A stretch of 61,786 bases of DNA from IMG/VR virus record IMGVR_UViG_3300021960_009997, positions 1-61,786 of that record. One strand, given 5' to 3'. This DNA comes from a virus. Positions within the stretch are counted from its first letter, which is position 1. The number at the start of each line of letters is the position of its first letter. The position numbers and the translations under genes are program-made. Of this stretch, positions 115 to 59,193 are shown piece by piece. The notes under the pieces are model-generated. The model made no database searches, was not told the DNA's origin, and worked only from the letters and a program-made list of their open reading frames with translations.

Positions 115-1404
115 ATGCTTTTAAATCGCAGAACTATGCTAAGAGGTGCAGGTGCAACACTTGCACTGCCAATATTAGATGCTATGATTCCTTTAGCATC
201 AGCTAAAACTAACCCTCAATTCAGAGCCGCATTTGTATATGTTCCTCACGGTGTCATATTAGACGAGTGGAACTATGACGGCATTCTGAGACCATTACAA
301 CCTTACCAAGATCAAATAAGCATTTATCGTGGGATGAAGTTGAACACAAATAACCATGCGGGAAGTGGCCACGCTACGAGTTCCGCCACATGGTTATCGG
401 GAGCCGTTGCTAAAGACACAGCAGGAGCTGATGTAGAGGCAGGCAAAACTATTGACCAAATGATTGCAGATAAAATTCGTGGTGATACTGTATTGCCGAG
501 TATGCAATTAGGAATAGAAGATATATCACAGATGGTAGGTTCTTGTGATGGTACTTCAAGTTGTGCATACATTAATTCAATCAGTTGGGATACTGATACT
601 TCAAACTTACCAATGGAAATTAATCCACGCACATTGTTTGAAAGAATGTTTGGCTACGGTGCAACCCATGAAGAAAGACTAATGCGTACAAGTGTAGATA
701 GTAGTTTGCTTGATAGCATTATGAATTCATCAGCGAATTTAAGGAAGAAGTTGGGTAACCAAGACAAGGAAAGACTTGGGGACTTTTTAGAATCAGTGCG
801 AGAAGTAGAGCTAAGGATTGGTAACTTAGAGAACAAACTAAGGGCACAAGGATCTAATTTGTCTACTGCTCCTTTTGAAGTACCTGAATTGTATGAGGAT
901 CATGTAAGAGCTATGACTGATGTTATGGTTTTAGCATTGCAAACTGATACAAGTCGTGTACTTTCATTTATGTTAAGCAGAGAGCTTAACCAAAGAACAT
1001 ATCCGCAGATAGGAGTACCAGAGCAACATCATGGTGTTTCTCATCACGGATATAATCCAGAAAGACAAGCGTTACACGCTTTAATTAACACTTACCATGT
1101 CAAGTTATTCACAGAAGGTTTTGTGGACAGACTTGCAAACACACCTGACATAGACGGAAGTTTATTAGATAATACTCTGATTATGTACGGTGCTGGGATG
1201 GGAGACGGAAATGTACATAGTAAAGACCCTTTATCGAATCTACTTGTGGGTGGACGAAACCTTGGTGTGCGAGGAGGTCGAGACATCGACACAGTGCAGC
1301 CTGATGGTTCAAGCATGCCTAACGCTAACCTCCTCAGAGGAATGTTAGAGAAGTTTGATATTCACTTAGATGAGTTAGGACATTCCACTGGCGTCTTCAT
1401 TTGA
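115..1404 (+). CDS. DUF1552-family protein with Tat-like signal
   Basis: The 429-residue protein starts at an ATG preceded by AGGAGA. Residues 4-11 (NRRTMLRG) and the following hydrophobic stretch form a twin-arginine-type signal, suggesting export in a folded state. The body matches my memory of the DUF1552 family: an opening FVYVPHGV segment, a GHATSSATW segment and a C-terminal GAGMGDGNVHS segment near residues 359-369. DUF1552 is known mainly from Planctomycetes, Verrucomicrobia and marine Gammaproteobacteria, usually beside cytochrome-c-like DUF1592 genes, and is related to the DUF1501/sulfatase-like fold. Its biochemical role is not established. No DUF1592 partner is visible. The gene looks intact, has a T4-type late promoter motif upstream, and overlaps the convergent oxygenase gene by 30 bases, so it appears to be a real phage-borne host-type gene and not a remnant. 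A chimeric assembly cannot be fully excluded. Confidence 0.75.
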   Translation: MLLNRRTMLRGAGATLALPILDAMIPLASAKTNPQFRAAFVYVPHGVILDEWNYDGILRPLQPYQDQISIYRGMKLNTNNHAGSGHATSSATWLSGAVAKDTAGADVEAGKTIDQMIADKIRGDTVLPSMQLGIEDISQMVGSCDGTSSCAYINSISWDTDTSNLPMEINPRTLFERMFGYGATHEERLMRTSVDSSLLDSIMNSSANLRKKLGNQDKERLGDFLESVREVELRIGNLENKLRAQGSNLSTAPFEVPELYEDHVRAMTDVMVLALQTDTSRVLSFMLSRELNQRTYPQIGVPEQHHGVSHHGYNPERQALHALINTYHVKLFTEGFVDRLANTPDIDGSLLDNTLIMYGAGMGDGNVHSKDPLSNLLVGGRNLGVRGGRDIDTVQPDGSSMPNANLLRGMLEKFDIHLDELGHSTGVFI

Positions 1405-52832: not shown

Positions 52833-53816
52833 ATGAAACGCTCCACAGCGTTTATCATGCTTTTGATGACCAATATAGCTTATGGACAAGTAGCAAACGA
52901 TGCAGATGGTAACTTTGACTCAACAACATACGTAGAAACAAACAATACTACCAATACGAGTAGTACGTCTGCATCTACCTCAAATAACACCAACTTAAAC
53001 ACTAACAACACAACCATTAGTGCAACAAACACTAATAACAACACTAACCTAAATACCAACAACACAACAATCAACGCCACTAATACGAATACTAATAATA
53101 ATATTCTGTCTGGTGGCACCAACAATACTAACACCAACAACAATACAAATGTAAACTTTAATAACACATCTGTAACAGCAACAAACAGCAACACCAACAC
53201 TAACAACAATACTAATGTTAGTACAAGCACGGCGAATAATACCAATGTTAATACTAATAACAGCACGGTAGACTCGACTGCTACAACTAACAATACAAAT
53301 ACCACAACCAGTGATAATACAAACACTAACTATAATGAAAGTGTTGCTACAAACAACAATACCAATGTAAACGAAAACAGAAACTTGAGCGAGTCTAATC
53401 AGACTCAGGATATCAATCAAAAAATTGAATCACCTCCTCCCTCTGCCATCGCTCCAAGTATTGGTAGTTCTTACTCACAAGACTTATGTACTACGGGTGT
53501 TGGTGGTGCAGTACAAACTCAGATCATAGGTATTTCTGCAGGTAAATCTGTAACAGATGAAAACTGTGAAAGAATCAAACTGAGCAAGACACTGTATGAC
53601 ATGGGTATGCGTGTAGCTGCTGTTTCTCTTATGTGTCAAGACGAGCGTGTGTGGACTGCTATGAAAATGGCAGGCACTCCTTGTCCGTGGCAAGGACTAA
53701 TCGGTGACGAAGCAGGTGCAGCGTGGGAAGAAAACTTAACTGACATTCCTGGTGTCAGTGAAAGAGATGTAGACAGAGGAAGAGTTACCTCATCACCTAA
53801 CAGCCCAACAAGATGA
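52833..53816 (+). CDS. Signal-peptide protein with Asn/Thr repeat region
   Basis: The 327-residue protein has a signal peptide (residues 1-19, ending AYGQ), then from about 30 to 195 a low-complexity stretch of N-T-N-N/T-x-N units with regular returns of NTNLN/NTNVN, suggesting a beta-helix or flexible exported region. The C-terminal 110 residues are a separate conserved domain (SSYSQDLCTTGVGGAVQTQI, ENCERIKLSKTLYDMGM, CQDERVW and GTPCPW) with paired cysteines and found in other marine T4-like phages. Function unknown. Its stop overlaps the next signal-peptide gene (ATGA), implying joint export, perhaps to the periplasm of the dying host or as a virion component. Confidence 0.75.
   Translation: MKRSTAFIMLLMTNIAYGQVANDADGNFDSTTYVETNNTTNTSSTSASTSNNTNLNTNNTTISATNTNNNTNLNTNNTTINATNTNTNNNILSGGTNNTNTNNNTNVNFNNTSVTATNSNTNTNNNTNVSTSTANNTNVNTNNSTVDSTATTNNTNTTTSDNTNTNYNESVATNNNTNVNENRNLSESNQTQDINQKIESPPPSAIAPSIGSSYSQDLCTTGVGGAVQTQIIGISAGKSVTDENCERIKLSKTLYDMGMRVAAVSLMCQDERVWTAMKMAGTPCPWQGLIGDEAGAAWEENLTDIPGVSERDVDRGRVTSSPNSPTR
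52975..53390 (+). repeat. Asn/Thr-coding low-complexity repeats
   Basis: Units of AAY/ACN codons (asparagine and threonine) recur in-frame, giving DNA rich in AACACT/AATACC. The repeats explain the open frames on the opposite strand here, which are therefore not genes. Confidence 0.85.
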
Positions 53817-58098: not shown

Positions 58099-58389
58099 TT
58101 AGTCTTCGTCTATATCCAGTTCCATTTGCCTGAGCATTTCAGCTTCAAGCATTTCTACAGGATCTGTCAGCGTGATGCTAATTTTATCCCCTGTAGCATA
58201 CATGGTATTGTCCCAAGTATGATTATACGGAACATCTACTGTCATAGTGTCAATACCTGACAAATCAATATTATCAGCTGACAGGGTATAGGTTACAGGT
58301 ACTGAATCACCAAAGCTGACTGTAAGTGTATCAGGCACGTTTGCCTTAGTTGGAAACTGAATTACGTTATCTTTCTTTTTATCGCTCAT
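58099..58389 (-). CDS. Hypothetical acidic small protein
   Basis: The protein is 96 residues from the ATG at 58389, which has AAAGGAG upstream and overlaps the nuclease stop (ATGA); a longer start would run far into the nuclease gene. The sequence is DNVIQFPTK..., then beta-rich segments (TLTVSFGDSVPVTYTLSADN) and an acidic end (LEAEMLRQMELDIDED). It is the last gene of the nuclease operon and might be a partner or immunity-like protein, but nothing proves this. Confidence 0.7.
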   Translation of the reverse strand: MSDKKKDNVIQFPTKANVPDTLTVSFGDSVPVTYTLSADNIDLSGIDTMTVDVPYNHTWDNTMYATGDKISITLTDPVEMLEAEMLRQMELDIDED

Positions 58390-59000
58390 ACAATGCTCCT
58401 TTGCATAAAATCTGGGTTGTAAACATAACAAATCATTTTCTTGGGCACGTATTTAACAACAAGAGTCACATCTTCGTCTGCGTGATTGTGTACGTGGCCT
58501 TTAAATACACTTCCTTCGGGTTTTACTTGTACTGGATGGTCTCCTATCCACGCATCTATGCCCTCTGACTCCTCTTCCGGAGTGCCAAACCGATAATCTT
58601 GACCAAAATGAGCGGCAACCACCTCAACCGCCATCTCCTCACCGCCCATTCCCATGTGCGTTTTGTTATAGATGACTTCTTTAATGTAGTCAAGGCACAT
58701 TTCTTCCGAAATTCCGCCTATTTTCATCAATTTTATCATCTCGTAGGTCTTTTTTCCGGCCTCAGCAAGGTTTTTTTCGCCAAACTTACCATTGTAGTAG
58801 TTTGTCCAGTTATCAAGCGTGCCAGGTATGCCTTTATCCTTCATTTCAAGCCATGTTTCCTTCATGGAACCGACAAATTTGGCACGTAGAGCCTGAGAAT
58901 TCTGAGTAGCGATGTTTAAAAGCTGCGTAGAATACTTGGGCCACGTCCTACGTGACGGTACTACCACTGTTTTGTAGTTTTTCGCTGTTAGCTTGAGCAT
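58386..59000 (-). CDS. MjaI-family restriction endonuclease-like protein
   Basis: The 204-residue protein matches the MjaI family (Pfam RE_MjaI): KYSTQLLNIATQNSQALRAK and KFVGSM near the start, TLDNWTNYYNGKFG, CLDYIKEVIYNKTHMGMGG in the middle, and the active-site region FGTPEEESEGIDAWIGDHPV followed by QVKPEGS. E153, D158 and K170 (approximate) could form the PD-(D/E)XK site. MjaI itself cuts C^TAG. No cognate methyltransferase is seen. Instead, I could find no CTAG in this window. It lies in an early operon behind the promoter at 60320. A homing-type or host-DNA-degrading role is likely. Confidence 0.78.
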   Translation of the reverse strand: MLKLTAKNYKTVVVPSRRTWPKYSTQLLNIATQNSQALRAKFVGSMKETWLEMKDKGIPGTLDNWTNYYNGKFGEKNLAEAGKKTYEMIKLMKIGGISEEMCLDYIKEVIYNKTHMGMGGEEMAVEVVAAHFGQDYRFGTPEEESEGIDAWIGDHPVQVKPEGSVFKGHVHNHADEDVTLVVKYVPKKMICYVYNPDFMQRSIV

Positions 59001-59193
59001 ATTCTTCTATCCATACTTTTTCAAACTTCCGCCCTCGCTTATCGAAGGAAGAAGGTTTCTTATTATATATGATAACGTCAGTTCCTTTTTTGATGTACGC
59101 AGTCATTCGCCCCGACTCATTTAGAAAATACGTATGGTTCGGTTGAAAGTCCAAGTCCCAAACAGTTATCTCACGTAGTGCGTTATATTTCAT
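58948..59193 (-). CDS. Small hypothetical protein
   Basis: The protein is 81 residues from the ATG at 59193 (AGGACG upstream); a longer frame would invade the upstream gene. Contains YNALREITVWDLDFQPNHTY and KKPSSFDKRGRKFEKV; basic at the C-terminus. The 3' end overlaps the nuclease gene by 53 bases, so translation is closely linked to it. Function unknown. Confidence 0.6.
   Translation of the reverse strand: MKYNALREITVWDLDFQPNHTYFLNESGRMTAYIKKGTDVIIYNKKPSSFDKRGRKFEKVWIEEYAQANSEKLQNSGSTVT

Follow-up and report, generated by a model that had tools for sequence, protein, structure and literature searches.

Why would a phage carry the gene for a restriction-type nuclease in DNA that lacks the presumed target of this enzyme, and with no recognisable methyltransferase to protect it? 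This question is raised by the IMG/VR virus record IMGVR_UViG_3300021960_009997, whose whole linear sequence of 61,786 bases was analysed and is here called the window. It probably represents only part of the genome of a T4-like myovirus. The closest matches of its baseplate gene gp6 are in marine T4-like phages of Pelagibacter, Synechococcus and Methylophilales. A second IMG/VR record, 3300021962_000111 (G010), is 99.98% identical to positions 1-35802 (35.8 kb) of the window, and adds 24.2 kb to this phage, including the T4-like genes gp20 and gp23. Besides phage genes, the window encodes an unexpected passenger, a DUF1552 (HXXSHH) protein (115-1404, plus strand, E=3.6e-75), which adjoins phage structural genes. 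Furthermore, positions 33358-53816 hold a long metabolic-type cassette, in which Pfam recognised an AMP-binding ligase, a carbamoyltransferase and a nitroreductase, and in which radical-SAM-like and glycosyltransferase-like open reading frames were assigned by eye. An Asn/Thr-repeat protein (52833-53816) comes after the metabolic-type genes.

The nuclease gene lies on the minus strand at 58386-59000 and encodes a product of 204 amino acids. As the initial annotation had proposed, this product belongs to the MjaI restriction family, matching positions 1-151 of the 164 in the Pfam profile RE_MjaI (PF09568) with E=2.2e-28 and 99.6 bits (cut-off 22.7). MjaI, the founder of the family, cleaves at CTAG. 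RE_MjaI was the only Pfam match above cut-off; the other one listed, MMS21_N, stayed below its own, and Pfam detected no homing endonuclease domain (HNH, GIY-YIG, LAGLIDADG). The window nuclease shares 60% identity with nine viral-contig homologues, and its clade has N- and C-terminal extensions of its own relative to the cyanophage forms. Among 73 family members, E144, I148, D149 and K160 are invariant, and E143 and G147 are conserved in at least 90%. These residues outline a probable catalytic core, EE..GID..(8-9 aa)..(Q/S)xK, at residues 143-160 (58521-58574, minus strand), which appears PD-(D/E)xK-like, with E144, D149 and K160 as the putative catalytic residues. AlphaFold models of fair confidence (pLDDT 81 and 87) had no significant Foldseek match in the PDB in two attempts, and a sequence search of the PDB returned no relevant match for the nuclease. 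The homologues are under strong purifying selection (dN/dS about 0.03-0.1), which indicates that the nuclease is in use. Its specificity is likely CTAG, as suggested by the family founder and by the comparative CTAG pattern described below. Two small open reading frames without Pfam matches flank the gene on the same strand. The one directly upstream (58948-59193) overlaps the nuclease start and has no assigned function, and the one directly downstream (58099-58389), which shares a 4-base overlap with the nuclease stop, is not a methyltransferase.

The window contains no CTAG from position 1 to 61786. Both the absence, previously noticed by eye, and the accompanying estimate of about 200 sites from independently drawn bases held up, with 213 sites expected from base composition and 145 from a second-order (trimer) model. 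CTAG is the sole 4-mer with a zero count, and the other palindromes said to be present are indeed there (GATC 136, CATG 137, GTAC 199, TCGA 75). A synonymous codon shuffle (51 genes, 55 kb, 500 trials) gave a mean of 112 CTAG (sd 8.4, minimum 89) against the 0 observed; therefore, neither protein sequence and composition nor codon usage explains the loss, and they were ruled out as its cause. Elsewhere in the genome the picture is the same: the 24.2-kb extension is free of CTAG, and the 60 kb examined of the second record have 0 against 147 expected.

The methyltransferase search covered four Pfam families, N6_N4 (PF01555), D12 (PF02086), C5 (PF00145) and Dam (PF05869). None of them was matched in the window record, in agreement with the earlier reading that no methyltransferase is recognisable there, nor in the second record. 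A cognate methyltransferase in the genome, the mark of a Type II restriction-modification system, is thus missing from the window record, itself a fragment. What the window and its 24.2-kb extension present for CTAG is a PacI-like situation, with neither a cognate methyltransferase nor the site. The same four families are absent from the complete 190.8-kb genome of the cyanophage S-SM2, and from a 160-kb and a 115-kb record with a nuclease of the family. In S-SM2, the annotation of the whole genome includes no DNA methyltransferase either, and the nuclease (ADO97408.1) stands alone. An immunity gene linked to such solitary nucleases was ruled out, as no neighbour family is common to their distant carriers.

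The sample of the MjaI family comprised 66 viral-contig loci and GenBank phages, and records with at least 20 expected CTAG were scored after near-duplicates had been partly collapsed. Where the nuclease occurs without an N6_N4 methyltransferase, 15 of 17 records have zero CTAG, with 12 sites observed versus 2,275 expected. Where an N4/N6 methyltransferase is adjacent, none of 19 records reaches zero (535 versus 1,673). The two groups differ with a Fisher p = 2e-8, records being treated as independent. Observed and expected numbers among the solitary carriers are 0/145 for the window, 0/325 for the 160-kb record (G040), 0/127 (G041), 0/165 (G042), 0/196 (G044), 0/304 (G045), 0/290 for S-SM2 and 0/106 (G064). 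These carriers represent several unrelated backbones, namely the window phage with its T4-like gp20 and gp23, the distant T4-like 160-kb record, the 115-kb record of another type (0/304), and S-SM2.

The phages with a methyltransferase paint the complementary picture. A single nuclease of the window clade (L118) is followed, 28 bases downstream, by a methyltransferase, and CTAG was kept there (76/119). In the cyanophages S-CAM3, S-RIM32 and S-H9-2, a DNA methylase comes directly after the nuclease. Records with both genes have an overall observed/expected ratio (O/E) for CTAG of 0.32, and among cyanophages the ratio goes down to 0.08. There is therefore some pressure on the site despite the methyltransferase, and part of the CTAG avoidance may come from another source. 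Taken together, these comparisons show that the absence of CTAG depends on the presence of the nuclease and the lack of a methyltransferase. The initial annotation had suggested that the phage is immune by motif avoidance, and the sequence tests support such a tie to the nuclease gene: CTAG is lost without a methyltransferase and kept, usually in reduced number, with one.

The 12 CTAG of the solitary set are confined to two records, nine in a single patch of G069 and three at a contig end of G001. In G069, the patch spans 2.8 kb (L222-L223, 19853-22618), mostly inside a long virion-type gene, and is about 81% identical to the CTAG-free relative G064, compared with about 84-91% in the flanks. 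In G001, all three sites fall within the initial 610 bases; there the record matches its relative at about 88%, versus 95% elsewhere. The remainder of both records is free of CTAG. These exceptions could be accounted for by recent recombination or by chimeric contigs.

Phages that are related but have no detected nuclease show ordinary CTAG frequencies, not the equal absence that would have spoken against a tie to this gene. We compiled four sets, each with at most 80 relatives and each based on a gene that was taken either from the window phage or from one of the other backbones with the nuclease; their median CTAG O/E values were 0.84-1.13. The phages whose gp6 is most similar to that of the window (42-50% identity) have ratios of 0.77-1.19. 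Across these phages, 298 of 301 stretches with at least 20 expected sites contain CTAG. In the three exceptions (L598, L599, L656), all of them fragments, no nuclease was seen within their 16.6-29 kb; the marker genes of L598 and L599 are 100% and 91% identical to that of the nuclease-bearing G045, and L656 is a CTAG-free fragment of 29 kb. The CTAG-bearing relatives include 44 long records (60-383 kb), none of which has the nuclease. Bellamy and SynMITS9220M01, which among the phages without the nuclease are closest to S-SM2, have 59/78 and 65/86 CTAG, respectively. T4-like phages that do not carry the gene, cyanophages for the most part, have O/E values of 0.75-1.17. These values and the medians of the relative sets rule out that T4-like or cyanophage genomes are generally poor in CTAG.

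A tree of 118 nucleases indicates at least four changes of methyltransferase state among viruses, with the solitary state in the window clade, in the S-SM2 group and in the L159/L164 group. An independent-pairs test yielded four pairs, of which on average 2.0 agreed with the prediction and 0.1 contradicted it; with only four pairs, significance is out of reach. Most bacterial and archaeal homologues adjoin a methyltransferase gene, and the ancestral form was therefore probably a restriction-modification pair. Among the cellular homologues, one clade (L263, L269, L271, L272, L277, L279, L288, L292), mostly on Desulfobacteraceae-type contigs, had no N6_N4 methyltransferase detected nearby. These may be solitary chromosomal enzymes.

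The reading that we favour, with a probability of about 0.8, is that a solitary and active CTAG nuclease attacks non-self DNA, while the phage is immune through the absence of the site. The phage would produce a Type II-like enzyme from the MjaI family, predicted to be active in the cell and to cleave CTAG. The methyltransferase that is normally the shield of the owner does not seem to accompany it. Instead, self-immunity would have been reached by the removal of every CTAG from the phage DNA, which is proposed to be immune because CTAG is missing from its genome. DNA with CTAG would be cut, be it the host chromosome, the genomes of co-infecting phages, or both. Cleavage of the host chromosome would yield nucleotides and shut off the host.

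Alternatively, a host enzyme that restricts CTAG might have driven the loss, leaving the phage nuclease incidental, or acquirable only once the sites were gone. When lytic phages lose a palindrome completely, the cause is usually host restriction-modification (PMC6286503). In addition, other phages in the same sets are without CATG, GATC, ACGT or GTAC, and CCGG has a zero count in several cyanophages that have no MjaI-type gene. A host CTAG enzyme had been considered from the beginning and stays as a rival, but it does not predict that the loss depends on the methyltransferase of the phage itself, with CTAG being retained where nuclease and methyltransferase are paired. Nor does it fit the ordinary CTAG content of relatives that share hosts at the broad level of marine Synechococcus, or the rarity of CTAG-zero stretches, otherwise about 1% of the 301 relatives. 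We consider it clearly the less probable account, although the strongest of the rivals. A prior loss of CTAG, followed by acquisition of the nuclease, is possible as a form of pre-adaptation and is compatible with a solitary nuclease acting on non-self DNA.

It is a good deal less probable again that the phage has a separate protection, through a distant methyltransferase or modified bases, so that the two halves of a restriction-modification system are split and the absence of CTAG is strong but ordinary avoidance. The window record is a fragment, and therefore a methyltransferase could be encoded elsewhere in the phage. Moreover, separated restriction and modification genes are known in bacteria (PMC3488263), and cyanophages with both genes are CTAG-poor as well (O/E down to 0.08). 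Such a split is at odds, however, with the lack of the four methyltransferase families in S-SM2 and in the 160-kb and 115-kb records, and with the S-SM2 annotation. It is also at odds with the distribution of zero counts, found in no record with both genes (expected at least 20) and in nearly all solitary ones. Finally, the nuclease could be inactive or have another role, and the scarcity of CTAG could have mutational or structural causes, as in many bacteria. Many bacterial genomes indeed have few CTAG, the bacterial contigs that encode MjaI homologues are poor in the site, and the fold comparison gave no match. Yet a count of exactly zero in up to 190 kb, the ordinary ratios in relatives of the nuclease-bearing backbones, the 112 sites of the synonymous shuffle versus 0, and the low dN/dS all speak against this account, which we regard as very improbable.

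How does this arrangement compare with known systems? With the MjaI family (PF09568), the window protein shares the profile match (151 of 164 positions) and the invariant E144, D149 and K160, but not the methyltransferase partner that most bacterial and archaeal homologues have next door. The pairs in S-CAM3, S-RIM32 and S-H9-2, annotated as 'restriction enzyme, type II R/M system 1' and 'DNA methylase', include a homologous nuclease (about 32% identity), also in T4-like marine phages. They have an adjacent methyltransferase and have retained CTAG (81/424 in S-CAM3), whereas the window phage has neither. The site of another enzyme, PacI, is a rare one of 8 bp. PacI is functional in a bacterium without a methyltransferase, and is tolerated because the genome does not contain its site (PMC3488263). 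It is a bacterial HNH enzyme, whereas here a presumed 4-bp cutter is encoded by a phage, which had hundreds of sites to lose. Among viruses, Type II-like restriction enzymes are credited with the breakdown of host DNA in chloroviruses (PMC7019647), and those of marseilleviruses are proposed to attack rival viruses (PMC7253447). Both groups protect themselves by methylation, in contrast to the self-protection through absence of the site that is proposed for the window phage. The phage homing endonuclease gp210 of PhiPA3 damages the DNA of a co-infecting relative (PMC11620839). It is an intron-encoded HNH enzyme with one target in one gene, while the presumed target here is a 4-bp word throughout non-self DNA. 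In the open-access literature, searched by keyword, we found no report of a phage-encoded restriction enzyme with CTAG avoidance or with a site-free genome.

Other words are missing, or nearly so, in some of the phages compared. In many marine T4-like contigs (L016-L094, L356-L595), another palindrome (CATG, ACGT, GATC, GTAC or TCGA) is fully missing and CTAG is ordinary. AGCT is nearly missing in the nuclease-bearing L002-L009 (records G001, G003, G006 and G007), with 3-7 sites versus about 75-107 expected, a second avoidance. CCGG is absent or nearly so in S-CAM3 (1/158), S-RIM32, S-H9-2, S-SCSM1, P-SSM2, S-MbCM100 and P-HM2, regardless of an MjaI-type gene. In the three phages with the pair, it was ruled out as a footprint of this gene, as gene-free cyanophages are also without CCGG.

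The loss of sites by phages is usually read as a defence against host restriction, and in the present case it accompanies a weapon of the phage itself. The methyltransferase provides a natural experiment: with the nuclease alone there are zero sites, with a methyltransferase added the sites persist, and without the nuclease they are ordinary. This suggests that the lack of a four-letter word works as a mark of 'self'. A tentative generalisation, which we hold to be somewhat less likely than its opposite, is that a missing short word is a recurrent self mark of phages. Restriction-modification pairs would repeatedly have shed the methyltransferase after the sites had been purged, so that a single gene remained as a weapon against the DNA of hosts and rivals, and marine phages fully without CATG, GATC, ACGT or GTAC may carry unrecognised solitary nucleases of matching specificity. 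If confirmed, the solitary nuclease would represent a minimal, one-gene system of self/non-self discrimination, and the specificity of such a nuclease would be predictable from the missing word in the genome of its phage. Its roles in host degradation and in competition between phages could then be tested directly in an existing isolate, S-SM2.
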